33,227 nt of DNA, taken from positions 1 to 33,227 of the IMG/VR virus record IMGVR_UViG_3300032753_001147, one strand, 5' to 3'. The stretch is from a virus. A program made the position numbers and the translations under genes. Shown one piece after another: positions 3,082 through 32,684 of this stretch (position 1 is its first letter; the number at the start of each line of letters is the position of its first letter). Under the pieces are notes generated by a model that saw only the letters and a list, made by a program, of their open reading frames with translations, searched no databases and had not been told where the DNA came from.

Positions 3082-3924
3082 CTATTCTATGCTCCAACCC
3101 ACAATTTGGTTACAAGATTTGACAATTCCTACTACTTGATCGTCCGATAATTGCTGACCGTTAATGGTGTCCAATTGGCCTAATCTAATAGCACCCACAG
3201 ACAATCTTAAATCCCCCAAAGCATACGGCCATTTAATCCCGCTTTCATAGTAAAACCTATTAAAATCTCTTTTGAGCTGTGCATGATCGGAATCGTGGAA
3301 AAAACAAAAATGCATAGCGCCTAAAACATTTTGCGGTATAATTTGATCAGTGGGAATATTTACATCATTAGAGTACATTATTTCTGCAGGATTTCTTCCA
3401 ATAATTGGATAACCCATTATTAACGATCCTACAGACTTCTCAAAAGTAAAATAATTATAATCGCCAATGTCTAACGGTATTAAGTTACTGCCTATTAATA
3501 ATGTTAAATGTAAATTGTTATGTGTAATTTTTCCAGCGCGATCGATTGATTCTATATGATGTATTAAATCATTGTATCTTTCCAATTGTTGTCTGTGCAA
3601 AGGATCTGTATCATTCCTACATTCTGGAAAATGTGTATGAAATAAATTAACACTAGCTTGAACATCATTGTGATTCCAATTATTAAAATTTATTTTATTA
3701 GGAATCCATTCATTCATTTTTTCTACCAGAGAATATAATTCATTTACATAAGGTGTTGTATCTTCAGGAATGCCGCACCATACTTCCTTATCTTTACGAA
3801 GGTCAGATATATTTGATTGTAACATTAGCTGAGCCCAAATCCGAGCAGGCCGATGCTGTTCTAAAATATAAGATAATTTATAGATAGTGTCGCTGTCACG
3901 GATGTAAAGGTTGTACCGTTTCAT
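3082..3924 (-). CDS. Hypothetical partner of the radical-SAM genes, 280 aa
   Basis: No family recognised. It is the third gene of a tight minus-strand operon, starting inside the end of the radical-SAM gene upstream (29-nt overlap), so it is almost certainly translationally coupled and co-functional. Visible features: aromatic- and His-rich stretches (NNWNHNDV near 81-88; FHTHFPE near 94-100; HFCFFHDSDHAQLKRDF near 206-222) and a clear middle segment LTLLIGSNLIPLDIGDYNYF (near 140-159). No signal peptide, transmembrane helix or Cys cluster is seen. The clustered His/Asp residues could bind metal, but no canonical motif is complete. It could be a substrate-binding or accessory protein for the two radical-SAM enzymes. 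Confidence 0.65.
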   Translation of the reverse strand: MKRYNLYIRDSDTIYKLSYILEQHRPARIWAQLMLQSNISDLRKDKEVWCGIPEDTTPYVNELYSLVEKMNEWIPNKINFNNWNHNDVQASVNLFHTHFPECRNDTDPLHRQQLERYNDLIHHIESIDRAGKITHNNLHLTLLIGSNLIPLDIGDYNYFTFEKSVGSLIMGYPIIGRNPAEIMYSNDVNIPTDQIIPQNVLGAMHFCFFHDSDHAQLKRDFNRFYYESGIKWPYALGDLRLSVGAIRLGQLDTINGQQLSDDQVVGIVKSCNQIVGWSIE

Positions 3925-4951: not shown

Positions 4952-6197
4952 TTATTGCCTCTCTAACAACTTCCATTTCTGGAACTATTTTAAATATATC
5001 TTCATTACGTAAATTATCTACTTGTTTAGAAACATGTACAAATTTCTTAGCGGCTTCTAAATTAAATGGTTGATCAAGCTCGTGGAAGATTTGTGTAAAG
5101 ATAGAACTAATATCTGTTGAATATTTTGTATTATAATTAGCTATAAAATCTTCTAGCTCTTTAATAGTATCACGTCTGTAGTCATCTGGCAGTATGCTTA
5201 CATGATAATGTTTAGGATGATCTAATAAGTTAATAAAGAAATTATTATAGTTAACGTATTGATGTATTACAGGATGTCTGCGTATAACACCTAAGTCAGT
5301 TAAGTAGGTGATAATTTGTGGAAGTCGTCTAACATTCCATGCACCTATAGTCATGCCCGGACGAAGTATAATATTGTCGTGTTTAGCTAACTCTTTTAAG
5401 TTTTCTTCGACTTTACTCCATACTGTTCCGCTACGGATTAATTCGGCACGTTCGCCGATTTCATCTAAACTAGGCCATACTTCTAGTTTGCCTAATTGCC
5501 ATTGACTCCAATAATCGATAACATTTCGTTTACCGTACTCTAATGTAGAACAATTGGTATTATAACTAAGTTTAACATCAAACCGTTTCTTTTCTACCAG
5601 CTTGTCTAGAATCTGCCAATGTTCAGGCATAAGCAATGGTTCGCCGCCCGCAAAGTAAATTCTTCTAACATTGTCGATTTGATCTTCAAGGAAGTCTACG
5701 TTGGTCTTATCTTCGACTGCTTCGATATTCCACACTTTTTCTTGATCAGTATAACCTAACTTTTTAGCATCTGGAACCCATGCACTACTATAACGTGGAC
5801 CGCATGATCTGCATTTGTAGTTGCATAAATTACTAAAACGAAAATCCCAATACTTTAATTCCATAGTGGTACAAGTACCATCTTCTAGTGTAATTTCTGG
5901 AATCTTTTTCAACACTCCAGGAAAGTCTCTATTATGATAATGACGTCCACTTACACCTGTTACATCTTCTTTCTTCCAACAGGTATCGCAAATCTTTGGA
6001 CGCTCCCCATTAATCATTTGCTTGCGCAAAGATTTCATGTTATCACTATTCCAAATTTCTTCAATGGTTTGTGTTTTTAAATCCCCGGCAAAATAATTAT
6101 GGTGACTAGTTAGACAGCAAGGCACCACCTTGCCATTAGGTTCGAAGTTTAAATGCATCCATGGGATAGCACATATTGTATCTTTATTATCCATCAT
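4944..6197 (-). CDS. Twitch/SPASM-domain radical SAM enzyme
   Basis: 417 aa. The N-terminus has the auxiliary-cluster pattern CAIPWMHLNFEPNGKVVPCC (Cys9, Cys27, Cys28), then IEEIWNS and CDTCWKKE (Cys70, Cys73), as in stand-alone twitch/SPASM domains. The radical-SAM motif follows at CNYKCRSC (Cys125, Cys129, Cys132), with YFAGGEP (the GGE SAM-binding element) near 183-189. It is the first gene of the three-gene unit 6197 to 3082. Two adjacent ATGs exist at 6197 and 6194; the SD is weak and the choice uncertain. Radical-SAM enzymes with auxiliary clusters usually modify peptides or act as dehydrogenases or mutases. Neither a precursor peptide nor a leader-binding domain is visible nearby, so the substrate is open. 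Confidence 0.87.
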   Translation of the reverse strand: MMDNKDTICAIPWMHLNFEPNGKVVPCCLTSHHNYFAGDLKTQTIEEIWNSDNMKSLRKQMINGERPKICDTCWKKEDVTGVSGRHYHNRDFPGVLKKIPEITLEDGTCTTMELKYWDFRFSNLCNYKCRSCGPRYSSAWVPDAKKLGYTDQEKVWNIEAVEDKTNVDFLEDQIDNVRRIYFAGGEPLLMPEHWQILDKLVEKKRFDVKLSYNTNCSTLEYGKRNVIDYWSQWQLGKLEVWPSLDEIGERAELIRSGTVWSKVEENLKELAKHDNIILRPGMTIGAWNVRRLPQIITYLTDLGVIRRHPVIHQYVNYNNFFINLLDHPKHYHVSILPDDYRRDTIKELEDFIANYNTKYSTDISSIFTQIFHELDQPFNLEAAKKFVHVSKQVDNLRNEDIFKIVPEMEVVREAING

Positions 6198-20473: not shown

Positions 20474-20938
20474 CTAGTTATTTAGTTGTTTTTGAGTTTT
20501 ATAGACTACAGGCATCATACCTACTGATTTGCGAGCAACCAAATTCTTTTCGTTGTTAATATGCACAGTTGATGTAATTTCCATAGCACCTAACCTTCTT
20601 GCTTCTTGTTCTAGATAATCAAAAATAATTTTATACAATCCGCGTCCTCTATAATCTTTATCAATTATAGTAAAAACTATGTATACAGACTTTGATACAG
20701 TCGGATCCCAATCGATAACACATGCGCCAACAACCTTGTTATCCATTTCGGCATATACTGCTCGACAGTTATTGTGTATTTCAATTTGTGAACCGGCATG
20801 GCCATCATCGATGCAATCTGCCATTCCTCTATAATATAAAGATAATAATTCTTTAGGGCCAGCACCAACGTAAGTAGAATATTTTACAATCACGTTGTTG
20901 CCGGTTTTATCGAATGCGTTTCCAAGTATTTTAATCAT
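20474..20938 (-). CDS. GNAT-family N-acetyltransferase
   Basis: 154 aa from the ATG at 20938 (MIKILGNAFDKTG). The longer frame to 20986 would cross both divergent promoter motifs and is unlikely. GNAT motif A is clear: VFTIIDKDYRGRGLYKIIFDYL, with R-G-x-G-x acetyl-CoA loop YRGRGLYK, followed by motif B ITSTVHINNEKNLVARKSVGM. It transfers an acyl group from acyl-CoA to an amine or hydroxyl; the acceptor is unknown. It is divergent from the flavoenzyme/PP-loop operon and starts 5 nt after CATAAATA with no Shine-Dalgarno, so its late transcript is predicted leaderless. Confidence 0.85.
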   Translation of the reverse strand: MIKILGNAFDKTGNNVIVKYSTYVGAGPKELLSLYYRGMADCIDDGHAGSQIEIHNNCRAVYAEMDNKVVGACVIDWDPTVSKSVYIVFTIIDKDYRGRGLYKIIFDYLEQEARRLGAMEITSTVHINNEKNLVARKSVGMMPVVYKTQKQLNN

Positions 20939-20943
20939 GCAAA

Positions 20944-20960
20944 TATTTATGGTATAAATA
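20944..20960. promoter_or_regulatory. Back-to-back divergent T4-type late promoters
   Basis: Plus strand TATAAATA at 20953-20960 (perfect), 26 nt before the ATG at 20987, with AAAGGA in the leader. Minus strand CATAAATA at 20951-20944 (7/8), 5 nt before the ATG at 20938. Only one base separates the two octamers. Confidence 0.65.
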
Positions 20961-20986
20961 GTTGACCTTAAAAATAAAGGAATCAA

Positions 20987-21874
20987 ATGACCAACATTTT
21001 AGGTTCACGATATCCTATCGTGGCCATGGCGATGAATCAGGTATCAGATATATCACTGGCAAAAGCAGTAAGGCAATCCGGCGGGATACCTAGTTTGAGC
21101 ATTTTCAATTATCCAATGCCTAGAAACATAGGATTATCGCAAGACTTAGATGAATACTTTAACACGTTTGGTGATTATAAATTGTTTGTAAGTACAGGTG
21201 TAGGTCCGATAATTTCTTCTAAAATATTGGATGTTATTGTATCTCGAAAGATTGAATTTGTTGAATTGATTTTAGATGAAGCAGGCGAAATTGAAGTTAC
21301 ACAAGATCGCCGAACACTTCTCAAACTTGCAATAGATAAGTTAATTAACAACAACATTAAAATTTTTACCAAATGTTTAAGTTTAAAAGATATTATTCCT
21401 GGAATTACTGGTGTCATACTTAAAGGAAAAGATGGCGCTGGTCGTGGAACATCAGAATTAAATTCATTATTTGAATCTGTTAAATCATTATATCCTGAAT
21501 TGCAAATAATAGTTTCGGGCGGAATAGGCACTCCGGAACAAGTAAAGTATTATATTGATAACGGTGCAGTTGCAGTTGGTGTAGGCACAATGCTATCGGT
21601 AGCAACAGAGTCAAAAATATCATTAGAAACAAAATTAAAGATAATATCTTCGTCATCGTCTGATATTAAAAACTTTTCTAATGGTGCTAAACAAAACGCT
21701 TTAATATTTTCAGAATTAGAAAATACAGATTACAATCATACAGCGGGTATTTCAATAGGAATTAACGATCCTACCAACGGGCATGTGTTTGCTGGCCGTG
21801 CTATTGATTATGCAAAATCAATTAAATCGTCTGCGGAAATCATTTCCGAATTAGTTTCTAAATTAGATTTATGA
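20987..21874 (+). CDS. Nitronate monooxygenase/NPD-like FMN-binding TIM-barrel enzyme
   Basis: 295 aa. Family marks: N-terminal YPIVAMAMNQVSDISLAKAV and QSGGIPSL; GKDGAGRG (147-154, equivalent to the EGxEAGGH loop of 2-nitropropane dioxygenases); IIVSGGIGTPEQVKYYI and AVGVGTML (198-203), the FMN-phosphate site. The family includes nitronate monooxygenases, FabK enoyl-ACP reductases and biosynthetic oxidases. The usual catalytic His in the EAGGH motif is replaced here by Arg/Gly (GAGRG), so the reaction may differ. It is first in a two-gene plus-strand operon with a PP-loop ATPase (ATGA overlap), so it likely feeds or finishes that enzyme's product. Confidence 0.82.
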   Translation: MTNILGSRYPIVAMAMNQVSDISLAKAVRQSGGIPSLSIFNYPMPRNIGLSQDLDEYFNTFGDYKLFVSTGVGPIISSKILDVIVSRKIEFVELILDEAGEIEVTQDRRTLLKLAIDKLINNNIKIFTKCLSLKDIIPGITGVILKGKDGAGRGTSELNSLFESVKSLYPELQIIVSGGIGTPEQVKYYIDNGAVAVGVGTMLSVATESKISLETKLKIISSSSSDIKNFSNGAKQNALIFSELENTDYNHTAGISIGINDPTNGHVFAGRAIDYAKSIKSSAEIISELVSKLDL

Positions 21875-23028
21875 TTATTAATAGTTTTTACGAAGTGGAC
21901 GGAGTTAAATTTGAGTCCAAGATCAGAGCTTGTTTGTTTGCATCAAGTGTTAACAAAGAAGTGACATGGAATTTTAATAAAGAATTCTTTTCAACATACG
22001 ATTGGACTAAAGAACCCGAAAAATCCTTAGATCAATTATACGATGAACGTGCTAAACGAATTAGAGAAAAGTATGATTATATAATATTAAGTTACAGTGG
22101 AGGTTCTGATAGTCATAACATACTAATGAGTTTTATACGTCAAAACTTGCACATTGATGAAATTGTTGTTAACCATATGTCAACAGCTTGGGACAAATTT
22201 GTTGTGTTAGATCCTAAACAAACAGCTAGCTGGAACACCGGAGCAGAACATCAGTTACAAACTATACCCAGACTTAAAGAAGTAGAACATCTTATACCTA
22301 GGACAAAAATAACTATCCTAGATTTAACAAAAAACTTATTCGAAGCATTTACCTCGTATGGTGATGCTAGTTGGGTGCTTGACAGAAAAGAAGGATTAAA
22401 TCCGCTTAATGTAACCCGATACAACTATTCTTACTTTAAAGACGTTAGAAAACAGTTTGACAAATCGCATAAAGTGGCAATGGTAGTAGGAATTGACAAA
22501 CCTCGCACTGTTATAGACAACAATAATCTTTATATGTATTTTACAGACAAAGGTGTAAACATAGTTCCTATCGATGACAGTTTTAAAGATTATACAAACT
22601 CTGCACTAGAGTTCTTTTATTGGAGCCCAGATGCCGCCGATATGTTATGCAAGCAATGCCATGTTATTAAACGATTTTTAGATTATAATCCGCAACATAG
22701 AGAACTGTGGGATCGTAAAAATCTAAGTGCCGATAATTGGAGATTAATACAAGAGCCAATGATAAAACCAGTAATATACTCTAATTGGAATACATCATGG
22801 TTTCAAACAGACAAATCAACTAGCGACTGGGCTAGTGAATTTGACACATGGTTTACTAGCGGGTATAAAGATCACGTTGCTCACAGGATCTGGAAAGAAG
22901 GTATCGACTATGTTGCCGCCAACGCTACTAAATTTTTAAAATATAAAGATGACGGCACACCGGACGGATTAAAGTTTTTTATACAACATTACAGAATTGG
23001 ATCTATGAATCCAATTGTTCCGAATTAA
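21871..23028 (+). CDS. PP-loop ATP pyrophosphatase (asparagine-synthase-like), long type
   Basis: 385 aa. The PP-loop SYSGGSDSHN (SGGSDS 76-81) marks an N-type ATP pyrophosphatase that adenylates a carboxyl, carbonyl or similar group with release of pyrophosphate. The N-terminal 70 residues contain no Cys2 glutaminase domain, so it is not a complete glutamine-dependent asparagine synthetase. The C-terminal half (ALEFFYWSPDAADMLCKQCHVIKRFL near 246-271) differs from the three shorter paralogues in this island. CxxC near 260-263 may bind metal. Coupled to the flavoenzyme upstream by a 4-nt overlap; its end overlaps the convergent DUF2061-like gene by 26 nt. Substrate unknown. Confidence 0.82.
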   Translation: MIINSFYEVDGVKFESKIRACLFASSVNKEVTWNFNKEFFSTYDWTKEPEKSLDQLYDERAKRIREKYDYIILSYSGGSDSHNILMSFIRQNLHIDEIVVNHMSTAWDKFVVLDPKQTASWNTGAEHQLQTIPRLKEVEHLIPRTKITILDLTKNLFEAFTSYGDASWVLDRKEGLNPLNVTRYNYSYFKDVRKQFDKSHKVAMVVGIDKPRTVIDNNNLYMYFTDKGVNIVPIDDSFKDYTNSALEFFYWSPDAADMLCKQCHVIKRFLDYNPQHRELWDRKNLSADNWRLIQEPMIKPVIYSNWNTSWFQTDKSTSDWASEFDTWFTSGYKDHVAHRIWKEGIDYVAANATKFLKYKDDGTPDGLKFFIQHYRIGSMNPIVPN

Positions 23029-23251
23029 GTTGTTTACCCCAATCGGCTCGATTCCATGCACGTTCGTGGAAGAAGTAAAGTGTGCTATTAATGACAGTAG
23101 TTACACCTGCTAATCCTGCGCCAAATGCCATACTACCTGTAGTAAAGTAACCAATGCAAAAATATTGGATAATCATTAATACTCGCCATGAAAGCATTTT
23201 GCCCACGCTTCGTGGTATTTTTTCTTGAAATTTTGTAGTTAGTTTAATCAT
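23003..23251 (-). CDS. DUF2061-like small membrane protein, 82 aa
   Basis: Pattern KMLSWRVLMIIQYFCIGYFTTGS followed by AFGAGLAGVTTVINSTLYFFHERAWN: two transmembrane helices (about 24-41 and 43-65), then the family-typical HERxWN. The full length and motif match the small DUF2061 membrane proteins of bacteria. Biochemical role not established. It is the second gene of a minus-strand pair with the AdoMet-decarboxylase-like gene (4-nt overlap). Confidence 0.78.
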   Translation of the reverse strand: MIKLTTKFQEKIPRSVGKMLSWRVLMIIQYFCIGYFTTGSMAFGAGLAGVTTVINSTLYFFHERAWNRADWGKQLNSEQLDS

Positions 23252-23619
23252 TTTTTAGCGTTCCTTAGAACCATGTTAGCATTAATATTAGTTGGAGAAA
23301 ACACTTCATTAACCATATCGATAACTGTTTGTTTTTCAAATGGTTTGCAACTAAACACGTCGAGATACATCTGTCGGGACTCATCTATAAAATGTGCCGA
23401 TATATTACTGGTAACTATGAGTTGATACATACTAAAACCTTCTTTGTCTGGCAAGCCTATAGCTGTACGTTCTATCCAAGGTTCACCAACAGCTATCATA
23501 TCAATAGCTACGACTAATCTGCTGACAAATGATTTAATAATATCCTTACTTATAATGCTATCATTGCATTGGTCGCAATCTAGCATTAAATGATATCCCC
23601 AATAAGTTTTATTTTCCAT
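23248..23619 (-). CDS. speD: S-adenosylmethionine decarboxylase-like (SpeD-type) pyruvoyl enzyme
   Basis: 123 aa, the length of prokaryotic SpeD. WGYHLMLDCDQCND matches the SpeD start (HLxxDxxxCD), and LDVFSCKPF matches DVFTCG with the proton-donor Cys91. The autocleavage region reads VTSNISAHF where SpeD has ESHISIHT: the pyruvoyl-forming Ser71 and downstream His76 are kept, but the preceding Glu is Thr and the next His is Asn. SpeD makes decarboxylated AdoMet for spermidine; some SpeD homologues decarboxylate arginine or ornithine instead. The altered motif makes the substrate uncertain. Its ATG is 4 nt after ACTAAATA with no separate ribosome site. Confidence 0.75.
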   Translation of the reverse strand: MENKTYWGYHLMLDCDQCNDSIISKDIIKSFVSRLVVAIDMIAVGEPWIERTAIGLPDKEGFSMYQLIVTSNISAHFIDESRQMYLDVFSCKPFEKQTVIDMVNEVFSPTNINANMVLRNAKK

Positions 23620-23623
23620 CTTC

Positions 23624-23631
23624 TATTTAGT
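23624..23631 (-). promoter_or_regulatory. Late-promoter-like octamer, speD-like unit
   Basis: Minus strand ACTAAATA (6/8 to TATAAATA), 4 nt before the ATG at 23619 with no Shine-Dalgarno between. A weak match taken alone; it is listed because position and spacing repeat the pattern of the neighbouring units. Confidence 0.35.
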
Positions 23632-23651
23632 GACCGGTCAGAAAGGTGTGC

Positions 23652-23659
23652 TATAAATA
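23652..23659 (+). promoter_or_regulatory. T4-type late promoter for the Rieske gene
   Basis: Perfect TATAAATA, 4 nt before the ATG at 23664. The predicted transcript begins at or next to the start codon. The AGAAAGG further upstream (23640-23646) would not be in this RNA. Confidence 0.6.
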
Positions 23660-23663
23660 TGAT

Positions 23664-24506
23664 ATGATATTTAAAACTCCGCCAAAGATTTTAGCACACA
23701 AGGCATCTCTTGCTAGTGGAAATTTTGTCACGCCCGAATATATTTTAAATTCAAATAACGGTAACATAAATTTATTAAAAAGATATTGTCCACACCGAAT
23801 GTACCCATTAGGAAAAAATGGGCAAACCGTAGATAATATTGTTTGTAAATATCACGGCTTTGCTTGGGACAAAAATGGACAACCTGTTAACAATGATAGG
23901 CATTTAGGATGCGGTTCTGCCGAAATCGGACGGTCGGGGTTAATCTTTAAAAATTTTAAAGAGCCCACCCATTACTGGGTCGACGATTTAGCAAAAGAAG
24001 AAAATCTACAGTTTAGTCATGTAATGCAAGGTAGCAGTACCGGAAGTTGGTTATGGATGATGGAAATTCAAGCCGATTTATTACACATACGTGGAGGTGA
24101 CGATGTTGTGCATCCCTGGCTGTCTACTATTGAAGGATTGGATAATGTAGACATGGATGCCGGTGACGGATGGATACTACAAACCTGTAGCACTGGATGG
24201 TGGTTATTCATATATCCATTTACGTTTATTGAATGGAGTAAGGGTTGTTTATCAGTTAACTATACTATTCCTAAAGATAATAACACTGAGTTTGGATTCG
24301 ATTGGATAACACAATTCTATTATGATCCGGCTACTACGCAAGATCGTAAGATTATATTTGAAAAACTAGAGGATGTGTTTCATGAAGATGTAGATACAAT
24401 CGAAGCACAGCATGGTCGATTCTTTCCTTTAATGAAATCAACCAGCCATCTCGAAGATCATTGTGTACATTTTGGAAAATGGGTTACGGCGAATAGATTA
24501 GATTAA
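23664..24506 (+). CDS. Rieske-type non-heme iron oxygenase
   Basis: 280 aa from the ATG at 23664; a GTG 18 nt upstream is an alternative but would precede the expected transcription start. The Rieske [2Fe-2S] motif CPHR-x-CKYH is complete (Cys42, His44, Cys61, His64; spacing 16). The mononuclear iron site is recognisable in EIQADLLHIRGGDDVVH (Asp138, His141, His150). This is therefore a genuine terminal oxygenase that hydroxylates or demethylates an organic substrate using O2 and electrons from a reductase. No reductase or ferredoxin is visible nearby, so host electron carriers are presumed. Single-gene unit; its end overlaps the convergent PP-loop gene by 23 nt. Confidence 0.88.
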   Translation: MIFKTPPKILAHKASLASGNFVTPEYILNSNNGNINLLKRYCPHRMYPLGKNGQTVDNIVCKYHGFAWDKNGQPVNNDRHLGCGSAEIGRSGLIFKNFKEPTHYWVDDLAKEENLQFSHVMQGSSTGSWLWMMEIQADLLHIRGGDDVVHPWLSTIEGLDNVDMDAGDGWILQTCSTGWWLFIYPFTFIEWSKGCLSVNYTIPKDNNTEFGFDWITQFYYDPATTQDRKIIFEKLEDVFHEDVDTIEAQHGRFFPLMKSTSHLEDHCVHFGKWVTANRLD

Positions 24507-25407
24507 GTAAAGTCTGTTCTAAATATACTTGAATTCTATTCGAATTTGCTTTTGTATACTGCCTATCGAACTCTTCCATGAAAGGTGGAAATATTTTCTC
24601 TTTATCTGGATTAGGCCCTTCGAAACCAATTAGTTTAGTTCTAGGCGTAATGTCGGGCCAGTATGCTTGATGTATCATAACCTTGCTAGTCTCTGTAGAC
24701 AATTTACCTTGTACTCTGTCATTAATTAAGTCTTGTATATATGGTAGTTGGCTAAATGCCACTAGTATCTCAGGAGAATATTCATACCAATCTGTAATAG
24801 CAGTTCGTCCAATAGCTAAGTGATATACAGCCCAGTGGTGCGAATGTTCGTCTATTTGAAACACCCATGGATAGTTTTTAGTCCAATCTTTGCTGGTTCT
24901 TCGAAAATATGGTTCCCCACTAGCTATTATAGGAATCTCATCGATGTAGTCTGTCATTTTCATTTGTGGCAACCAACCAGGGCCCATGGCATACGTCTTT
25001 AGCATAAAATCGTATGCTTCGTTTTCAAAAAACTTTTCTAAATTAAAATCGATTACAACAGGAGTTACGTTAAGTTTCTTACAAGTTTCGATAGCATGAG
25101 TAAACTCTATAATATTATAATCGTTTTCATATTTAAAAATATATACTTTAATTGGAATTTTTAAATCAAGGTATACTCTTAAAACAATCTCGCTGTCTAC
25201 TCCTCCAGAGAACAATAATCCTAACGGTTTATTAAACCGCTCGTATATAACTTTTCCGTTCTCTAAAAGTTCTTCATGATAACTTTTTACAGGTCGGGTA
25301 ATTTTATTTCTAAGAATAAAATTCATCTTTGCTTGGGGAGACAATTTAAGTCCGTATTCGGGCCCATCATTATAAGTCCAAGAAAGCCAATTATCTTTAT
25401 AAAACAT
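24484..25407 (-). CDS. PP-loop ATP pyrophosphatase (copy B of a tandem pair)
   Basis: 307 aa. PP-loop LLFSGGVDSEIVLR (SGGVDS 67-72), then VYIFKYENDYNIIEF and VVIDFNLEKFF. Later motifs ASGEPYFRRTSKDW and TDWYEYSPEIL are shared with the neighbouring copy. It is an N-type ATP pyrophosphatase/asparagine-synthase C-domain without an Ntn-glutaminase domain. Nearly every segment aligns with the gene at 25413-26336, which has the same length; about half the residues are identical by eye, so this is a tandem duplication followed by divergence. Third gene of the GNAT-PP-loop-PP-loop minus-strand operon, 5 nt after the upstream copy. Substrate unknown. Confidence 0.82.
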   Translation of the reverse strand: MFYKDNWLSWTYNDGPEYGLKLSPQAKMNFILRNKITRPVKSYHEELLENGKVIYERFNKPLGLLFSGGVDSEIVLRVYLDLKIPIKVYIFKYENDYNIIEFTHAIETCKKLNVTPVVIDFNLEKFFENEAYDFMLKTYAMGPGWLPQMKMTDYIDEIPIIASGEPYFRRTSKDWTKNYPWVFQIDEHSHHWAVYHLAIGRTAITDWYEYSPEILVAFSQLPYIQDLINDRVQGKLSTETSKVMIHQAYWPDITPRTKLIGFEGPNPDKEKIFPPFMEEFDRQYTKANSNRIQVYLEQTLLNLIYSP

Positions 25408-25412
25408 AGATT

Positions 25413-26336
25413 TTAACTTCCTATTTTTTCAATTAATTCTGTTTCAGTATATCCAACAATTTTATTAGTAACTTTATCCCGACCGTATTGTTTAGAAAAT
25501 TCTAACATAAACGGAGGTAATAATTTGTTTGGATTCTCGTCCACGCCTCCGAACCCTATTAATTTATTTCTAAGTTCTAGTGTTGGCCAATATTGTTTAT
25601 GTATTATTCCTTTGCTAGTCACTGTGGATAATTTTCCAGTAATACGGTCGTTTATTAAATCTTGCACGTATGGAAGTTTAGAGTAAGCTAATATTAATTC
25701 TGGTGAATATTCATACCAATCTGTAATAGCAGTTCTTCCGATAGTTTTAAAATACAATGCCCACAAGTGATATGATTCTTCTAATAGGAATTCCCACGTT
25801 GCAGGCTGTGTCCAGTCTTTACTAGTACGTCTCCAATATGGTTCGCCAGTAGCATATATTGGTGTGCCATCAACAAACTCGGCCATTTTTAATTGCGGTA
25901 AAAATCCACTGCTTGGAGCATAAATTTTAGTCCATATGTCATATGCATCATTTTCAAAAAATTTTCTTAAATTAAAATCTATAACTGTTGGAGTAACATT
26001 CAGTTCCCTGCAAATACGTGTCGCTTGTAAATAGTCGGGCAAGTTATAATCATCTTCATATTTGAAAATATAAACATTAACAGGAATTTTAAGTTCTAGA
26101 TATATTCGTAATACTACTTCGCTGTCTACTCCACCAGAAAAAAGCAAGTCTAGTGATCCAGGCACAGCATCTCTAATTGCTTGTGCATTGTTACGCAGTT
26201 CGTTGTAATGGCTTTGGATAGGACGTGTGATAGTATTTCTCAGTATGAAATTAACTTTAGATTGTGGTGTAGTCTTAGAACCATATTCCACTCCGTCTTC
26301 ATATGCCCAGGCAAACCAATTATCTCTATAAAGCAT
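25413..26336 (-). CDS. PP-loop ATP pyrophosphatase (copy A of a tandem pair)
   Basis: 307 aa. DLLFSGGVDSEVVLRIYLEL (SGGVDS 67-72), VYIFKYEDDYNLPDY, TVIDFNLRKFF, YATGEPYWRRTSKDW, AITDWYEYSPELIL. Same architecture and length as the gene downstream (24484-25407). The GEP-x-x-RRTSKDW block probably contributes to the substrate pocket. It overlaps the GNAT-like gene upstream by 11 nt and is therefore co-translated. The QueC zinc Cys motif is absent, so it is not the QueC of a preQ0 pathway. Likely forms an acyl-adenylate that is attacked by an amine. Confidence 0.82.
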   Translation of the reverse strand: MLYRDNWFAWAYEDGVEYGSKTTPQSKVNFILRNTITRPIQSHYNELRNNAQAIRDAVPGSLDLLFSGGVDSEVVLRIYLELKIPVNVYIFKYEDDYNLPDYLQATRICRELNVTPTVIDFNLRKFFENDAYDIWTKIYAPSSGFLPQLKMAEFVDGTPIYATGEPYWRRTSKDWTQPATWEFLLEESYHLWALYFKTIGRTAITDWYEYSPELILAYSKLPYVQDLINDRITGKLSTVTSKGIIHKQYWPTLELRNKLIGFGGVDENPNKLLPPFMLEFSKQYGRDKVTNKIVGYTETELIEKIGS

Positions 26337-26898
26337 ATTTTCTCATTTGATCAGCCCAACGTTTAACTCCGTTAGGATTAAAACAATGTACCGCAACATA
26401 CTGTTTACAACTTTCTGGAATAGGGTTTAATGACCCGCAGACATTATAACGTGTTGGTTCTAAATCAAAGTTCATTTTACAATTAATTTCAACTAAGTCC
26501 AAATAGTGTTCAAATGCTTTTGGATTATGTTCTCTACTGATGAATACACAATCCAAATTGAGTAGTTTAGCTTTTGCTATCTGTAACGGTAAACAAAATG
26601 CAGTATTAAGAAACTTGTCACCGCCTGTAAATCTACCCCTGTGTCTGTAGTCAGGATGTATCCACATTCTAGTGCTGACCCTGCCTATCCCTGCTCCCCA
26701 ACGTTCTTCATTAATTTGTAATGCACTAAAACACACAATTTGGTTATCAATTATAACTACAGGAAAACAGGCAAAATCTCTTGGGTTTAAGCCTACATAG
26801 TTATCTTTAAGATCATCGTTAGTAGTTAGCAAATAACTTTGATATTGGTTCCAAAGTTGTTCATCAAAGTTATTTGCAAAGTCGATTATTTTCTTCAT
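26326..26898 (-). CDS. GNAT-like acyltransferase, 190 aa
   Basis: Central strands and helix CFPVVIIDNQIVCFSALQ, then GRVSTRMWIHPDYRHRGRF, resemble GNAT beta4-alpha3 with the R-x-R-G-R loop in place of the canonical RxxGxG/A. The rest (FISREHNPKAFEHYLDL) is compatible with GNAT motif B. It is the first gene of the minus-strand unit with both 307-aa PP-loop enzymes, so it may acylate the same substrate. Its ATG overlaps the divergent desaturase ORF's earliest possible start by 2 nt and follows ATTAAATA by 7 nt with no Shine-Dalgarno. Confidence 0.6.
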   Translation of the reverse strand: MKKIIDFANNFDEQLWNQYQSYLLTTNDDLKDNYVGLNPRDFACFPVVIIDNQIVCFSALQINEERWGAGIGRVSTRMWIHPDYRHRGRFTGGDKFLNTAFCLPLQIAKAKLLNLDCVFISREHNPKAFEHYLDLVEINCKMNFDLEPTRYNVCGSLNPIPESCKQYVAVHCFNPNGVKRWADQMRKYAL

Positions 26899-26905
26899 GG
26901 TGAGT

Positions 26906-26919
26906 TATTTAATTAAATA
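26906..26919. promoter_or_regulatory. Divergent late-promoter-like palindrome
   Basis: The palindromic core gives ATTAAATA on the plus strand (26912-26919), 4 nt before the ATG at 26924, and ATTAAATA on the minus strand (26913-26906), 7 nt before the ATG at 26898. Each matches TATAAATA at 6/8. Neither start has a Shine-Dalgarno. Confidence 0.4.
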
Positions 26920-26923
26920 CCAT

Positions 26924-27745
26924 ATGCCTAAGACAAATTCTTTCCTCTACTATGTGTTGTACCCCGCTCACGCCGTTGCCTGGTTTGGAACTGCGTTATA
27001 CCTATACTTTTTTAATTTTACCTGGATTAATTTTTGGGAATTGTTTATTGGGTGGGTATTAATCGAAGGGCTTGGTGTAGCTGTTGGACTGCATCGATAT
27101 GTAAGTCATAAAGCAGTAGAGTTGCGATGGGGATTAAAACCTATCGTGCTGTGGCTAAGTTGTTTAAGTTTACAAGGTAGCCCGTTAGGGTGGGCGGCAG
27201 TACATCGTGGTAGTCACCACAGATATAGCGATACTGAAAAAGATGCTCATGCTCCTAGTAAAGGCTGGTGGTATGCTTGGCACAGTTGGTTGTACGATTG
27301 GGATCAATATTTTAATGCTAAGTTTGCTATAGACTTACTTAAAGATCCTATGCATGTTTGGATTGCTAAAAATTATAATTGGATTGTATTAGGCACTTAT
27401 CTTGTTGTTGGAGTAATATCCTGGCAGTTGTTGTTATTTGGATTTATTGTGCCAGCCGCATTGAGCTTATATATGGAAAGTAATATTAATGTATTTTGCC
27501 ACACCGACGGATTCGGATACAGAACTTTTGAAACAAAAGATAAAAGTCGAAATGTTCCGTTGCTTGCCTGGATTACTTGGGGTCAAGGATGGCATAACAA
27601 CCATCACGAACGAGCAAGTGCGTACGACTTTGGAACTACTGTAAGCGGTAAAAAATCCGAATGGGATTCTAGTCTACTATTTTTACCTTTTATTGCTACA
27701 AAAGAAAGCAGAGATTCTATTTGGAAAAACAGGAATGAATCATAA
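26924..27745 (+). CDS. Membrane fatty-acid desaturase (acyl-CoA delta-9 type)
   Basis: 273 aa from the ATG at 26924 (MPKTNSFLYYVLY); 282 aa if the ATG at 26897 is used, but that overlaps the divergent gene. Three His boxes: HRYVSH (HX4H), HRGSHH followed by RYSDTEKDAHAP, and HNNHH; these ligate the di-iron centre. The second box has one residue more than the usual HRxHH. Four membrane-spanning helices are visible (about 5-25, 29-50, 67-87 and a pair near 148-185). It introduces a double bond into, or hydroxylates, an acyl chain in the inner membrane. It is first in the seven-gene plus-strand operon. It may alter host lipids or make the acyl donor for the GNATs. Confidence 0.85.
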   Translation: MPKTNSFLYYVLYPAHAVAWFGTALYLYFFNFTWINFWELFIGWVLIEGLGVAVGLHRYVSHKAVELRWGLKPIVLWLSCLSLQGSPLGWAAVHRGSHHRYSDTEKDAHAPSKGWWYAWHSWLYDWDQYFNAKFAIDLLKDPMHVWIAKNYNWIVLGTYLVVGVISWQLLLFGFIVPAALSLYMESNINVFCHTDGFGYRTFETKDKSRNVPLLAWITWGQGWHNNHHERASAYDFGTTVSGKKSEWDSSLLFLPFIATKESRDSIWKNRNES

Positions 27746-28370
27746 ACATCTAGGAAATATTCCTATTGAGTTGTTAACTCCGATTAAAGATAATATTATT
27801 AACAGTCCTATTTACGGAACTCCTGTATATAAAATTATCTATCCAAATGATAAAGTTGTAAAGTATTTTATAGATTTAATATTCCCCAAAGACTTCCAAA
27901 CTGATGATTTAAAAATACATAACATTAAAACGTTTGTAACTCCGCCCGAACATTTATCAACCGATGGACAATTGGGTTGCAAATATATTCACAAAGACGG
28001 TGTGGATAAAAAATGTGCATTAAATGTAGTTGTAGAATGCAATCCTGAAGATTGGGTTAGGTGGTACACTGACGAGGAAATACTTGTTAATCGATCTGGC
28101 ACAATGAAAATGAGAGAAAATCCGCCCGAACTAAATGTTGCAATGCACTCTAGAGATGTTCTTAATATTTTTGATATAGAAAATGTACCGTATGTACAAG
28201 AATTAACTAATCAAACACCTGGCGATTTTTATTTAATCAACACAGATGTTTTTCATTTTTTCAGAAATAGAGGTAAGAATTTTAGATTAATTATACAGAC
28301 TAAGTTTGCGCCCAACCCAAGCATAGAAGATTTAGAAAAAAGAATACAAGAAGTAGGGTTAAATTTTTAA
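27735..28370 (+). CDS. 2-oxoglutarate/Fe(II)-type hydroxylase-like protein
   Basis: 211 aa. The preferred start is the ATG at 27735, with ACAGGA just upstream, overlapping the desaturase end by 11 nt; the longer frame begins inside that gene. Jelly-roll markers: HKD (His86, Asp88) in KYIHKDGVDKKCALNVVVE and a distal His174 with Arg184 in DVFHFFRN-RGKNFRLIIQ, the HxD...H...R pattern of aspartyl/asparaginyl-hydroxylase-like oxygenases. It would hydroxylate a protein or small-molecule substrate. Its stop overlaps the PP-loop gene's ATG by 1 nt. Confidence 0.68.
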   Translation: MNHKHLGNIPIELLTPIKDNIINSPIYGTPVYKIIYPNDKVVKYFIDLIFPKDFQTDDLKIHNIKTFVTPPEHLSTDGQLGCKYIHKDGVDKKCALNVVVECNPEDWVRWYTDEEILVNRSGTMKMRENPPELNVAMHSRDVLNIFDIENVPYVQELTNQTPGDFYLINTDVFHFFRNRGKNFRLIIQTKFAPNPSIEDLEKRIQEVGLNF

Positions 28371-29284
28371 TGGATTTTACTTATAAAAATCATTTATCTT
28401 ACAGTATAGGAGATAAAGCGTATGGTTACAGAACAAATTCCGTTGAAAAATATTCAGTGACGGTAGGATCTGTCGACCTGGACAGATATGCTAATAGTTC
28501 GTATGTCGATGAACTGCATAGAACCGCAGAACTAGTTCGTAAAGATTTGGGCAATGATTTAGTTCTATTTTTGTCTGGAGGTACTGACAGCGAAATAGTT
28601 TTACGTAATTTTATACACAACGGGTTTAAACCTAGATGTGTAGCTCTTAGATTTGAAAATAATTATAATACTGGGGAAGTTGCAGAAGCGCAAGCAATCG
28701 CACAAGAACTAGGTGTTAAATTAGATATTATAGATTTCAATGTACATGATTTTTACTATTCCGGAGAAGCAACGGAATTCGGTAAACAAATACAATGCAC
28801 CCAGCTAACGTACATAATGGTATACCATAATATTTTAAAATTAGGTGCACCGGCTGTAATGGGCGGAGAAGCATTATTAACTCGCCAAGTAAATTTAAAT
28901 GATAGTTTTTGGTACTATACATTTAGAGAAAATGAAGATGCCAGTGCAATGAGGTTTACTGAAAAGTTTAATGTGCCGTTAGTCAATGAATGGTTTAGCT
29001 ATACTCCTGAATTATTGTTATACTGGTTAGAGCATCCAAAAATTAAAGAACTTGTTTCTACAAGATACAATTATAAACTAAACTCGGCTAGTAGCAAAAA
29101 CGCAATTTTATCTACGTTATACAAAACTAGACCAAAAACAAAAACACATGGATTTGAGAGTTTATTAGCATTTAATTATACTGCGTACAAGGACATAGGT
29201 GTTGACCAAGTTAAACGTTTAGAATCTAGTATAGACGGAATACCATACGATTTAGTAATAAAGCAATTAAAAGGACAAGCATGA
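28370..29284 (+). CDS. PP-loop ATP pyrophosphatase, divergent third relative
   Basis: 304 aa. VLFLSGGTDSEIVLRNF (SGGTDS 69-74), ALRFENNYNTGEV, IIDFNVHDFY, GGEALLTRQ and NEWFSYTPELLLYWL correspond point by point to motifs in the tandem pair at 24.5-26.3 kb, so it is a more distant paralogue of them. No glutaminase domain. It lies between a 2OG-type oxygenase and a GNAT-like gene with 1- and 4-nt overlaps, so these three act together. Substrate unknown. Confidence 0.82.
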   Translation: MDFTYKNHLSYSIGDKAYGYRTNSVEKYSVTVGSVDLDRYANSSYVDELHRTAELVRKDLGNDLVLFLSGGTDSEIVLRNFIHNGFKPRCVALRFENNYNTGEVAEAQAIAQELGVKLDIIDFNVHDFYYSGEATEFGKQIQCTQLTYIMVYHNILKLGAPAVMGGEALLTRQVNLNDSFWYYTFRENEDASAMRFTEKFNVPLVNEWFSYTPELLLYWLEHPKIKELVSTRYNYKLNSASSKNAILSTLYKTRPKTKTHGFESLLAFNYTAYKDIGVDQVKRLESSIDGIPYDLVIKQLKGQA

Positions 29285-29880
29285 AAATTATAGAGTTAGA
29301 TTCTACACATAGCGAACTTGTACGTCCATTATTTTATACAAAGAATTATATGGGTACAGATTTACATGCTAATTATTTTGTACCTACTGATAAAAATCCT
29401 ATAGAAGAAATTCATCATAGAAGTTTTGTAGAAACTTACTTGTCAGGGTTACACAGTTACAAAGCATTAGGATTGCAGGATGAAGACGGTAGCATAAAAT
29501 CTCTTATATCATTTTACATGAGTCCAGATGAAGCATGTTGGTACGGCACTATGATACGATCAGCTAACAATAAAGAATTCGTTCGTCCATTATTAGATGC
29601 AGCCATGGCTTATAATGAAGCACAAGGCCGATTAAAATTTTACACGTTGTGGTCTGGAAAACACGCAAAACTTTTACGTAGGTTTGCGTTTAGTCCTGAA
29701 GCAAGTGAACGTTATGATTATTTTGATGAAATAATTGTTCCATCCAAAACCAGATGTATATATACCAATTATTGGCAAGTACTGTTTGGACGCATATTAT
29801 TGCCGACAGATACTATTGTACGTTGTACTTTTTTAAAACAAAAATATAGAACCCAGTTGCCGAAAGGAGGTAACTTATGA
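29281..29880 (+). CDS. GNAT-like acyltransferase, 199 aa
   Basis: Middle region SLISFYMSPDEACWYGTMIR, then PLLDAAMAYNEAQGRLKFYT and RRFAFSPEASERYDYFDEII, follow a GNAT-like strand-helix-strand order without a clear RxxGxG loop, so the call is moderate. The C-terminal 60 residues (SKTRCIYTNYWQVLFGRILLP) are strand-rich and aromatic. Coupled by ATGA overlaps to the PP-loop gene upstream and the Asp-hydroxylase-like gene downstream. It could transfer an acyl or aminoacyl group to the PP-loop product. Confidence 0.5.
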   Translation: MKIIELDSTHSELVRPLFYTKNYMGTDLHANYFVPTDKNPIEEIHHRSFVETYLSGLHSYKALGLQDEDGSIKSLISFYMSPDEACWYGTMIRSANNKEFVRPLLDAAMAYNEAQGRLKFYTLWSGKHAKLLRRFAFSPEASERYDYFDEIIVPSKTRCIYTNYWQVLFGRILLPTDTIVRCTFLKQKYRTQLPKGGNL

Positions 29881-30482
29881 ATATGGTAAGCCCTTTTAAA
29901 TTGTTTAACGATGATTTAAATATGTTTAAATTATCTTCCTCGACTGAGCTAGGTGAAGAATTGCGTCAATATTTTTCCAACCCTGCAAACGATTATTTGT
30001 GGAAACTAACAACACATCGTCAGACGATTACACAGGCGTTAAGACACACTGAAAGTTTTCCATTACGTTATCTAAAAGACTTGCCTAAAGAATATGATAC
30101 TATTCAATCAAACCAACACATGGACGTAACAGATTCCGATTTAATTAAAATACCAGTATTTGCAAAAACTGTAGATTGGTTAGAAAATGCACTTAAAGAA
30201 ACAGAGGCCAACCGTATCGAGTTTGGCAGAATTTTTGCTAGTAAATTATCTGCTAACAAAAAGGTAGATTTGCATACAGACGAGGGTAAATATTTTAGTT
30301 ACTACGACAGATTTCATTTCACAATTACAGCCGCTCCTGAAAATTTATTTGTTATTCAAGACGAAGAATGTATTTTAGATCAGGATTGTTTATACTGGGT
30401 CAACAACCACGTGCCACATTGGTTAGAAAACAAAAGTAATACACCTAGAATTAATTTTATCATAGATGCAAGATTATCATGA
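29877..30482 (+). CDS. Aspartyl/asparaginyl beta-hydroxylase-like 2OG oxygenase
   Basis: 201 aa. LHTDEGKYFSYYDRFHFTIT holds the HxD iron motif (His133, Asp135), and WVNNHVPHWLENKS, TPRINFIID holds the distal His181 and 2OG-binding Arg191, a good match to the Asp/Asn hydroxylase fold. Strong GGAGG Shine-Dalgarno at 29865 before the ATG at 29877; a second ATG at 29883 is possible. Overlaps neighbours by 4 nt each. It would hydroxylate a carbon next to a carboxyl or amide, which fits an amide-forming pathway. Confidence 0.78.
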   Translation: MNMVSPFKLFNDDLNMFKLSSSTELGEELRQYFSNPANDYLWKLTTHRQTITQALRHTESFPLRYLKDLPKEYDTIQSNQHMDVTDSDLIKIPVFAKTVDWLENALKETEANRIEFGRIFASKLSANKKVDLHTDEGKYFSYYDRFHFTITAAPENLFVIQDEECILDQDCLYWVNNHVPHWLENKSNTPRINFIIDARLS

Positions 30483-31360
30483 GAATTGAAAATATACATG
30501 ACAACTGGGGATCTAAAATTTATTTAGATTCTCCTCAAGAATTTTTTGAATATTCTGCTGACTACTGGCGCAATTTAATGTATGAAAGAAAATTAATTTT
30601 TTTTAAACAAGTGCAATTTACCAAAGAAGAATACGCTTTATTTTCATTAATGTTTGGCCGGCCATGGAATGGTCCTGAATACGCTTATTCGAGAGAATCT
30701 ATAGAACCAGTCAATACTAAACATGGCCCATTATTCATCAGCCCGTTTAATAATAAAAATATAACAGCAATCGATGAGCGTGAAATGCCATGGCATTCTG
30801 ATATTCCAAACAGGTCCTACAGGCCTTTCCCATTTAGAAGTCTTTGGATTACTGAAAACCCAAATCCCGAAGTATCAGGAATAACTAGATGGCTAAATTT
30901 AGAAGAAGGTATAAACTATCTTACTCCAGAGATGACAGCACTGATACCAATAACTAAAGTTATACAACAAAGTTGGTACGATGAAGGTACGGATCTACAA
31001 GAACATGATATGTTAAAGATACATCCGATAACTGGAAAAGAATCTTTAAGATTAAATTATTATAACTGGGGACCACTAACCAATGCGTGGATTAAGGATG
31101 TAAAGATTGATGGAGAATTGCAAGGACATTGTTTTTTAATTAGACAATGGTTATTTCATTTACAACAGATTGAAAATTTAAAATATCATCATAAATGGGA
31201 TTTATATGATATTGCAATTTATGATAACTGGACTTTTTTACACGCTAGATCTGCGCTGACGTTTGATACAAAGAAATATATTCGTAATTTTTATAGGATC
31301 AATATCGATCATTTGTCCGAGGAAGATTGGGCTGTTCATAAACAAAAATATTCGCTATGA
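30479..31360 (+). CDS. TauD/TfdA-type 2-oxoglutarate dioxygenase
   Basis: 293 aa. N-terminal KLIFFKQVQFTKEEYALFSLMFG is the TauD-type lead-in. The iron motif WHSD (His106, Asp108) follows DEREMP, and the distal half is YDNWTFLHARSAL with His255, then RNFYRINID with Arg269/Arg273 for 2OG binding. The order and length fit the TauD/TfdA/clavaminate-synthase-like family, which hydroxylates or desaturates small acids and amides. In this operon it is a likely tailoring oxidase. ATGA overlaps on both sides. Confidence 0.83.
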   Translation: MRIENIHDNWGSKIYLDSPQEFFEYSADYWRNLMYERKLIFFKQVQFTKEEYALFSLMFGRPWNGPEYAYSRESIEPVNTKHGPLFISPFNNKNITAIDEREMPWHSDIPNRSYRPFPFRSLWITENPNPEVSGITRWLNLEEGINYLTPEMTALIPITKVIQQSWYDEGTDLQEHDMLKIHPITGKESLRLNYYNWGPLTNAWIKDVKIDGELQGHCFLIRQWLFHLQQIENLKYHHKWDLYDIAIYDNWTFLHARSALTFDTKKYIRNFYRINIDHLSEEDWAVHKQKYSL

Positions 31361-31923
31361 AGATAACACCAAAACGTTTGTTTGGCAAACAAACTGGCCA
31401 ACAAATGGATGCACTTATAACGCCTGATAATGCAGGACCTTGGGCTATCCGATACTTGTGGGTACAACACTTAGATGATAACGAATCGTTTTATAAAAAT
31501 TATTTTGATCCATCGCTATCGAAATCGGGCATGAATATTAGAAAGCAAACAGCTGATTTAACATCTGAATGGTCGGCACATAACAAAATATTTGAAGAGT
31601 CTGCTAAGAACGGAGACTTAGTATGGCGTGTTAAAATTGGTAATCCTACCAGCACAAGCATTGATTATATAGAAGTTTGGAAAAGTTTAGAAATATTAGA
31701 AAAGAATTTTGGAAATAATCCAGACTGGGATGGTGTTGATAGAAACTCATTTACCGAGAAATTGTTCGATGCTGGCTTTGATATTTTAAGTTGGGAACCA
31801 TTTCCTACTGTTAGTAAAGCTAAAGCCATGAGCTATTATAAACAATTTTTCGAGCAATGGAGTAATAAGCAAGACCGTCTTATTATTAATACATTCTGGA
31901 ATAGAACGCTTAATCCTTTATAA
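31357..31923 (+). CDS. Hypothetical protein of the modification operon, 188 aa
   Basis: No family recognised. MKITPKRLFGKQTGQQMDALITPDNAG... contains a Trp/Asp-rich region (NFGNNPDWDGVDRNSFTEKL near 116-135) and a basic Trp-rich end. No Cys, membrane or metal motif. It is the last gene of the plus-strand operon, coupled by 4 nt to the TauD-like gene. Its end overlaps the convergent oxygenase gene by 14 nt. It may be an accessory or substrate-binding protein. Confidence 0.68.
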   Translation: MKITPKRLFGKQTGQQMDALITPDNAGPWAIRYLWVQHLDDNESFYKNYFDPSLSKSGMNIRKQTADLTSEWSAHNKIFEESAKNGDLVWRVKIGNPTSTSIDYIEVWKSLEILEKNFGNNPDWDGVDRNSFTEKLFDAGFDILSWEPFPTVSKAKAMSYYKQFFEQWSNKQDRLIINTFWNRTLNPL

Positions 31924-32671
31924 GTGCTTCTCGTACTTCGGGTTTAAATTTGCCATCGATCCTGATACTAAAACTAAAATGACTAACAGGATCAGTACCA
32001 TGGTAATCCATTTCATTCCACCATATAAATCTTTTATCAGCATCCGGGTATATCTTTTCTAACGATTCACCATTCATAACATAAATGCCTTTTGATTTCG
32101 ATTTAGTAGTGAACCATATAAAATCATCGTGTGATTTTTCTGCTCGTTGTTCTTCATTTAAAACATCGTAGTGTGGAACAGTTTTATTGTTGGCTTCAGT
32201 CATAAACAATATAACACGACCTATTCCTTCAAAGGGTAAAGTTTTAATAAATTCAACTAGTGTAGGGAAATGCTTGGCATTGGGCGTCCAAAAACAATCT
32301 TTAGGAACTGCTTTATTATAAACACCAGTTCCTTCTATACGCTTATTCCAACGCAAAAACAATACCCAAAATGGATGTGGTGTGTACAGTAACGCATTTA
32401 GATATTTGATTTTTTCGTCTGTTTCTTTTAAAGTTCTAAATGTCGCTAGTTGCACAGGACTTAATCTGTTTTCTAAATCAATGAATGTGGTAGTAATTTC
32501 TTCTTCTGCCCACTGTTTGTGTACACCGCTAGAAACAAATTTCTTATTCCATTCAGCTTTGGCAATTCCTAAACTAACTTCGTTATGCAATTTATCCCAA
32601 TCGGGTGCAGTAATGTATTCGTCTAAATATTTAAAAGGCGTGTGATTTGGGTCAAGTCCGAGTATTGTCAT
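31910..32671 (-). CDS. 2OG/Fe(II)-type oxygenase-like protein, 253 aa
   Basis: From the ATG at 32671 (MTILGLDPN); an ATG two codons upstream overlaps the promoter octamer. The C-terminal jelly roll has VPHYDVLN (HxD), then GIYVMNGESLEKIYPDADKR, then NEMDYHGTDPVSHFSFSIRIDG with a distal His and Arg, as in the Asp-hydroxylase-like group. The N-terminal 150 residues are a separate helical region without recognised motifs. It is the fourth such oxygenase in the island and the only one on its own transcript, which starts 5 nt after a perfect TATAAATA with no Shine-Dalgarno. Confidence 0.68.
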   Translation of the reverse strand: MTILGLDPNHTPFKYLDEYITAPDWDKLHNEVSLGIAKAEWNKKFVSSGVHKQWAEEEITTTFIDLENRLSPVQLATFRTLKETDEKIKYLNALLYTPHPFWVLFLRWNKRIEGTGVYNKAVPKDCFWTPNAKHFPTLVEFIKTLPFEGIGRVILFMTEANNKTVPHYDVLNEEQRAEKSHDDFIWFTTKSKSKGIYVMNGESLEKIYPDADKRFIWWNEMDYHGTDPVSHFSFSIRIDGKFKPEVREALIKD

Positions 32672-32676
32672 GTACA

Positions 32677-32684
32677 TATTTATA
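32677..32684 (-). promoter_or_regulatory. T4-type late promoter
   Basis: Perfect TATAAATA on the minus strand, 5 nt before the ATG at 32671. By T4 spacing the RNA would start on the A of that ATG (leaderless). Confidence 0.6.

Follow-up and report, generated by a model that had tools for sequence, protein, structure and literature searches.

Acyl carrier proteins (ACPs) are encoded beside membrane enzymes of the FA_desaturase family in the jamABC alkyne cassette and in the polyyne clusters for caryoynencin and protegencin, and jamABC alkyne cassettes require an acyl-AMP ligase (PMC8406139). Among phages, two Prochlorococcus phages share an ACP, an ACP synthase, two asparaginyl hydroxylases and a taurine dioxygenase (PMC3037559), and lipid desaturases have been reported from marine cyanophages (Roitman et al. 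2018, as cited in PMC11480375). Here we describe an island of biosynthetic genes at 20.5-32.7 kb of a 33,227-bp virus record from IMG/VR, IMGVR_UViG_3300032753_001147 (the window, by which we mean this whole stretch of DNA). The core of the island consists of a PP-loop ATP pyrophosphatase (PP1), a GNAT-fold protein (GNAT3) and an SCD-like desaturase (FADS) and, as in the alkyne and polyyne clusters, an ACP stands beside a desaturase of this type in many phage relatives outside the clade of the window. At a probability of about 0.5, we read the island as a biosynthetic cluster whose core would make a carrier-bound, unsaturated and oxygenated fatty-acyl amide; its substrate, order of steps, product and role we infer.

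Co-inheritance of the PP1-GNAT3-FADS core

A search with the PP family returned approximately 80 viral loci from IMG/VR, 76 of which hold a PP1 orthologue (48-100% identity). Some of these 76 loci are near-duplicates, and a non-redundant subset comprises 46 loci flanked by 8 kb on either side. GNAT3 was the next gene after PP1 in all 71 loci with room for it, in one case across a gap of 617 nt, and in the reciprocal search with GNAT3, 64 of the 65 loci with room had a PP gene as its immediate predecessor. The PP1-GNAT3 pair is adjoined by FADS in 67 of the 76 loci; of the remaining nine, the contig stops too early in eight, and in L031 alone FADS is absent despite room for it. Both GNAT3 and FADS were present in 46 of 46 non-redundant loci. 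The gene order is FADS-PP1-GNAT3 in the clade of the window and PP1-GNAT3-FADS elsewhere, and the PP1 tree requires at least two changes of core order; the three genes nonetheless stay together. We regard co-inheritance of the core as practically certain. Phage auxiliary genes are mostly interpreted singly; here tens of divergent uncultured phages retain a multi-gene unit whose order and accessories change, and such retention is the signature of selection for what a pathway makes. The first-pass annotation of the window had proposed that the entire island acts together. For the inseparable core this is supported, in that relatives do not carry its genes singly at unrelated loci; for the periphery they do, and the proposal does not extend to it. 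Neither the island DNA nor, at the protein level, PP1, GNAT3 and a marine PP protein found a match among 50,697 phage records.

PP1 (28370-29284, plus strand) is a PP-loop N-type ATP pyrophosphatase of approximately 305 amino acids with an AsnB-like whole fold. Its SGGTDS loop is invariant in 52 orthologues. The AlphaFold2 model (pLDDT 84) was identified by Foldseek as a PP-loop fold, with AsnB and carbapenam synthetase as the closest whole folds (TM 0.45-0.48), and has no N-terminal glutaminase domain. By eye, the C-terminal part compares with AsnB in a conserved GGE, a conserved lysine and a K-x-K-x-x-GF-like pattern. PP1 and its paralogues PP2 and PP3 match the QueC, NAD synthase and Asn synthase models of Pfam weakly, with Asn_synthase scores of 11.6-15.9 bits, below the cut-off of 21. 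Against QueC, PP1 scored 23.2 bits in Pfam (cut-off 22), over the PP-loop segment alone (62 of 210 positions), and 23.4 bits in NCBIfam (cut-off 150.3). No cysteine is invariant across the 52 PP1 orthologues, C143 being a serine in close relatives. From the modelled fold, amide formation is a plausible predicted role for this enzyme.

GNAT3 (29281-29880, plus strand), directly after PP1 wherever there is room, is a divergent acyltransferase-like protein; its AlphaFold2 model (pLDDT 89) has a GNAT fold, with Foldseek TM values of 0.55-0.59 to SpeG and Pat. FADS (26897-27745, plus strand) is an SCD-like integral-membrane di-iron acyl desaturase (Pfam PF00487, 5e-14). Its family profile matches acyl-CoA desaturase 1 (4ymk) at 1e-23, covering mammalian SCD1 nearly end to end, and the histidines of its boxes HRYVSH, HRGSHH and HNNHH are invariant in 44 homologues. 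Within the clade of the window, no other core protein is as conserved (78-87% identity).

Carrier protein, oxygenases and movable genes around the core

The first-pass annotation overlooked an ACP gene that precedes PP1 in relatives, together with a further GNAT-like gene of the same unit. The ACP, approximately 71-84 amino acids long, is encoded immediately before PP1 in 34 loci, mostly with a 4-nt overlap; all aligned copies have DSL (Asp-Ser-Leu) at the phosphopantetheine site, and the Pfam model PP-binding (PF00550) agrees. The further GNAT-like protein, GNAT-A, precedes the ACP in most of these loci and is fused to it in L088, and the operon of the L057 type runs GNAT-A-ACP-PP1-GNAT3-FADS. 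The counterpart of GNAT-A in the window is GNAT2 (26326-26898, minus strand; 19 loci), which is oriented divergently from FADS; it is a remote homologue of GNAT-A (hhalign 4e-5) with a canonical-like RHRGRF. A small open reading frame (ORF) before PP1, considered as a candidate precursor of a ribosomally synthesized and post-translationally modified peptide, proved to be the ACP.

Four oxygenases of the 2-oxoglutarate (2OG)-Fe(II) type are encoded in the island. OG1 (27735-28370, plus strand) lies between FADS and PP1 here and in L043, and its residues H86/D88/H174/R184 are kept in 42 of 42 family members. AspHyd (29877-30482, plus strand), of the Asp/Asn-beta-hydroxylase type (PF05118, Asp_Arg_Hydrox, 2e-6; H133/D135/H181/R145 conserved at 98-100%), is paired with the TauD-family oxygenase of the tailoring module (30479-31360, plus strand; PF02668, 2e-15), whose H106/D108/H255/R269 are invariant in 23 sequences. 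OG4 (31910-32677, minus strand) likewise has invariant catalytic residues (H169/D171/H226/R239 in 19 sequences). Genes of the AspHyd type lay within 15 kb of PP1 in 19 of 26 cases (expected 6.5, p 4e-7) and other PP-loop genes in 16 of 26 (expected 6.2, p 5e-5), both evaluated on 15 long contigs, p values that are optimistic given that the sequences are related. Of 35 loci with close relatives of TauD, 25 show the core; these relatives mostly adjoin AspHyd. AspHyd-TauD is a frequent module around the core. All 17 contigs with an OG4 orthologue of at least 47% identity carry the core; OG4-like proteins below 40% identity belong mostly to a different, widespread phage family, with no core at 41 of 51 loci. 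In keeping with the earlier grouping of these genes, AspHyd-TauD, OG4 and the extra PP-loop genes are clustered near the core far above chance.

The conserved protein hyp188 (31357-31923, plus strand; 14 aligned homologues) has the core nearby at 15 of its 25 loci; at 10 the core is not in view, a number that falls to 9 when the 5-kb flank of L291 is taken into account. A wider role of this family is probable. Homologues at L293-L304 occur without the core, several of them adjoining radical-SAM genes.

Other carriers of the set vary the arrangement. In L343-L345, taken as marine from sample of origin and phage type, GNAT-A-PP-GNAT3-FADS faces an operon of AspHyd-ACP-OG4-TauD, an arrangement that links the oxygenases with the ACP. 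In L210, several desaturases are encoded on one strand in a single long operon together with Rieske, PP, GNAT3, hyp188, OG4, TauD and AspHyd, adjoining a ketoacyl synthase. Ketosynthase was rejected as a general part of the island, being found near the core solely in L210 (18914-19960) and L089 (8828-9874). In a search of 84,980 species of bacteria and archaea, PP1 matched metagenome-assembled genomes of Bdellovibrionales alone (24-28% identity); one of these, on a 413-kb contig (L099), encodes PP-FADS-membrane protein-GNAT3-ACP-FADS with AspHyd and B12-radical-SAM genes. Bdellovibrionia genome G054 C1 has seven PP-family copies at several loci, mostly without other core genes.

The remaining PP-loop proteins fall into two families. 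PP2 (24484-25407, minus strand; 25% identity to PP1) and its sister PP3 (25413-26336, minus strand), both with SGGVDS, form one family with PP1, in which SGGxDS is present in 11 of 11 aligned copies. PP4 (21871-23028, plus strand; 26 of 76 loci) represents a second, unrelated-looking family with SGGSDS invariant in 6 homologues. Optional with PP4 is an FMN protein (NMO; 20987-21874, plus strand; PF03060, 2e-10; 6 of 76 loci). It had been named nitronate-monooxygenase-like; NMO/FabK-like is the better name, given a match to the FabK enoyl-ACP reductase model TIGR03151 over most of its length, at 4e-9 and far below the cut-off. Further optional genes encode the Rieske-type oxygenase (23646-24506, plus strand; PF00355, 2e-9; 10 of 76 loci), a DUF2061 membrane protein (23003-23251, minus strand; PF09834, 5e-16; 7 of 76 loci) and the canonical GNAT protein GNAT1 (20474-20986, minus strand; PF00583, 5e-10), whose true start, from the sequence, is probably the ATG at 20938. 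A SpeD/AdoMetDC homologue (23248-23619, minus strand; PF02675, AdoMet_dc, 5e-15) is cargo rarely linked to the core (1 of 76 loci). By eye, it keeps the equivalents of Ser63, His68 and Cys83 and has a Thr before the processing serine. The counts for SpeD, NMO and Rieske mark a separate movable module and speak against a single pathway of 17 genes.

In L004, the island includes, at 955-3989, DctP (a TRAP solute receptor), TctC (a tricarboxylate receptor) and Amidohydro_2; TctC relatives often follow PP4 genes at other loci. By eye, the same contig (G003) has small GIY-YIG-like ORFs at 4831, 11764, 22069, 51537, 115646 and 118694, possible homing endonucleases between structural genes. Two radical-SAM genes of the window (3896-4951 and 4944-6197, minus strand; PHROG radical SAM), missed earlier, adjoin tail-fibre genes, and their relatives lie inside or adjoining the island in sister phages. 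B12-radical-SAM genes recur; their nearest model, rSAM_ladder_B12 (lipid biosynthesis), matched below its cut-off.

The gene inventory first given for the island was confirmed: four PP-loop proteins, three of GNAT type, four 2OG oxygenases with HxD...H...R, and the Rieske, SCD-like desaturase, NMO/FabK-like and SpeD-like proteins, encoded by overlapping or abutting ORFs, as described. Pfam supports the calls for GNAT1, NMO, SpeD, Rieske, the desaturase, AspHyd and TauD; the other island proteins were judged by family conservation and structure models. Tail-fibre, head-maturation-protease and DNA-ligase genes are also present in the window. The record is classed as linear, as fragments often are; contig L002, essentially the same sequence, extends 2.7 kb beyond its end. 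An Rfam scan of the window returned nothing, and PADLOC, run with a defence reading of the island in mind, returned weak QueC matches and nothing more.

A T4-late-type motif, TATAAATA, stands before NMO (20953-20960, plus strand), with further copies at 23652-23659 (plus strand) and 32677-32684 (minus strand). These three lie at starts of island transcription units and the fourth copy of the window before the gene at 9373; 5.3 copies were expected. The idea of a promoter type common to the island thus gains from the position of three of the four copies and loses from their total number, which is at chance level. The motif suggests that the island may be expressed late.

A candidate product and its rivals

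The reading of the core as a source of a fatty-acyl amide builds on what the loci display directly: the families of the enzymes, catalytic motifs that are intact, a core that is inseparable, the ACP in the operons of many relatives and modular tailoring. The combination of an ACP with an SCD-like desaturase indicates fatty-acyl chemistry. The match of the FADS profile to SCD1, the likeness of NMO to FabK and the lipid-biosynthesis model nearest to the B12-radical-SAM genes also favour this reading, as do the arrangements in L343-L345, L210 and L099. In the proposed pathway, the ACP, phage-encoded in many relatives and the host's in the clade of the window, would be activated by a host phosphopantetheinyl transferase; no phage-encoded one (PF01648) was found in 20 records. 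The SCD-like membrane desaturase would form a double bond in the carrier-bound acyl chain, and the PP-loop ligase, AsnB-like and without a glutaminase domain, would adenylate a carboxylate, which ammonia or an amine would attack to give an amide. The GNAT-fold proteins would move the acyl group between the ACP and an amine or hydroxyl acceptor. Acyl-homoserine-lactone synthases take acyl groups from ACP and, by analogy, so could proteins of GNAT fold in which the usual CoA loop is missing. The 2OG oxygenases (AspHyd-TauD, OG4 and OG1), Rieske, extra PP-loop and radical-SAM proteins would tailor the product, varying between phages. The product might change the host membrane or surface, or act as a diffusible lipid.

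Several observations weigh against this pathway. By E-value, the top Foldseek matches of PP1 are the sulfurtransferases MnmA, TtuA and LarE, so that amide formation is a judgement, and a fold assignment at TM of approximately 0.5 is weak. Where the canonical R/QxxGxG/A CoA loop would follow strand 86-94, GNAT3 has RSANNKEF instead, and it could be something other than an acyltransferase. Neither the window nor any entire record from its clade was found to encode an ACP, and these phages would thus have to use the host ACP; a dedicated carrier is not universal among core-bearing phages. Of 18 records, 3 encode an acyl-AMP ligase (PF00501), in each case at a great distance from the core. In Bdellovibrionia, the PP family is present in 24 of 144 genomes and GNAT3 in 1 of 144.

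The main rivals, which are partly questions of the purpose of the product, are surface decoration and membrane remodelling. That the island puts an acyl or aminoacyl group on a tail-fibre glycan or on host lipopolysaccharide is unlikely, though the most probable of the rivals: islands adjoin tail-fibre and glycosyltransferase-like genes on the L004 and L006 contigs, the methyltransferase-like mt_22 and the gt_23 families recur, one epimerase family is present in 14 loci, and in Pelagibacter phage Mosig an AspHyd-FADS-TauD-GNAT-AspHyd run adjoins tail fibres. The fixed core, however, holds no sugar-nucleotide enzyme, the ACP and the SCD-like desaturase indicate fatty-acyl chemistry, and the island of the window lies 17 kb away from the fibre genes. 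Next in probability, and also unlikely, is remodelling of the host membrane (fluidity, lysis timing or a superinfection block), with the PP-loop enzyme amidating a lipid head group. The conservation of the desaturase in the clade of the window and the reported cyanophage lipid desaturases favour it; it leaves unexplained the inseparable PP1-GNAT3 pair, the dedicated ACP and the many oxygenases.

The Foldseek ranking of PP1 would also suit a sulfur-transfer enzyme (LarE/TtuA/MnmA-like), the cluster then making a sulfur-containing product or thiolated RNA. The lack of an invariant cysteine in PP1 speaks against this, the core has no sulfur-carrier or desulfurase gene, and whole-chain TM is higher for AsnB and carbapenam synthetase; we consider it improbable. 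Highly improbable is a gathering of unrelated auxiliary genes in a hypervariable phage locus, with no common pathway. The free variation of SpeD, NMO, DUF2061, TctC, DctP and Rieske fits such a gathering, which for the core is refuted by three genes that are always adjacent over divergent phages with changed order; OG4 orthologues, moreover, occur solely with the core. A hypermodified base was rejected as the principal product because PP1 lacks the cysteines of QueC, of which a zinc-cysteine set is expected, and no nucleotide-pathway gene was recognised in the island. Among the products first listed, an acyl-linked one (lipopeptide or signalling molecule) fits best given the ACP in the operon; the base is disfavoured, and a surface glycan remains solely as a possible attachment target of the acyl product.

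Returning to the fatty-acyl amide, we propose tentatively, at a little short of even odds, that a widespread, horizontally reshuffled class of phage clusters, defined by an AsnB-like PP-loop ligase, two GNAT-fold proteins, an SCD-like desaturase and often an ACP of its own, makes new oxidised lipid amides in infected cells and is shared with at least one lineage of predatory bacteria. If so, a carrier-protein-based natural-product pathway would be a standard part of aquatic T4-like phages. Should a lipid amide be made, lytic phages would be forming a specialised metabolite or altering the envelope of the host in a manner that we have not found described. The cluster offers a direct handle, of three to five genes, for expressing and identifying the product.

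Comparison with known systems

QueC and the phage deazaguanine pathways resemble the island in the weak match of the PP-loop segment of PP1 to QueC and differ from it in that PP1 has no invariant cysteine; no QueD, QueE, FolE or TGT partner was recognised in the island. By eye, the L004 contig has separate QueC-like, MetK-like and QueE-like genes (99710-100336 and 121830-123973), so that deazaguanine chemistry, if any, would lie outside the island. Phage SpeD proteins have been neofunctionalised as ornithine or arginine decarboxylases (PMC10407285, PMC9992855). The SpeD homologue of the island belongs to the same family and, from its sequence, could be such a decarboxylase (compare PMC10407285), but it is loosely linked to the island. 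AsnB and the beta-lactam and carbapenam synthetases have the SGGxDS loop in common with PP1 (best whole-chain TM 0.42-0.48); unlike AsnB-type ligases, PP1 has no N-terminal glutaminase domain, falls below the Pfam Asn_synthase cut-off and is approximately 300 amino acids long.

Among phages, the T4-like marine isolate Mosig EXVC030M (MT647606), a cultured Pelagibacter phage, has AspHyd, TauD, FADS and GNAT genes beside its tail fibres, without PP or ACP, and the core is absent. The Prochlorococcus phages (PMC3037559), likewise T4-like and marine, have ACP, AspHyd and TauD like relatives of the island, and again the core is absent; none of the 50,697 phage records yielded a PP-loop or GNAT3 relative. 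The jamABC cassette shares the desaturase with the window; as for its ACP, one is encoded beside PP1 in the 34 loci noted above, and none in the window or its clade. Several desaturases in one cluster, as in polyyne clusters, are found in L210. In place of the jamABC acyl-AMP ligase, which is not near the phage core, stand a PP-loop ligase, two GNAT-fold proteins and 2OG oxygenases. We noticed neither a thioesterase nor a rubredoxin in the phage cluster, no search having been aimed at either. In the open-licence literature, we found no described cluster with this core, in phages or in bacteria. The component enzymes, and biosynthetic clusters as a kind, are already known; it is this combination in the core that we did not find described. 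Its conservation as a biosynthesis set in large, mostly uncultured aquatic phages suggests that these phages make a modified fatty-acid product of their own during infection.

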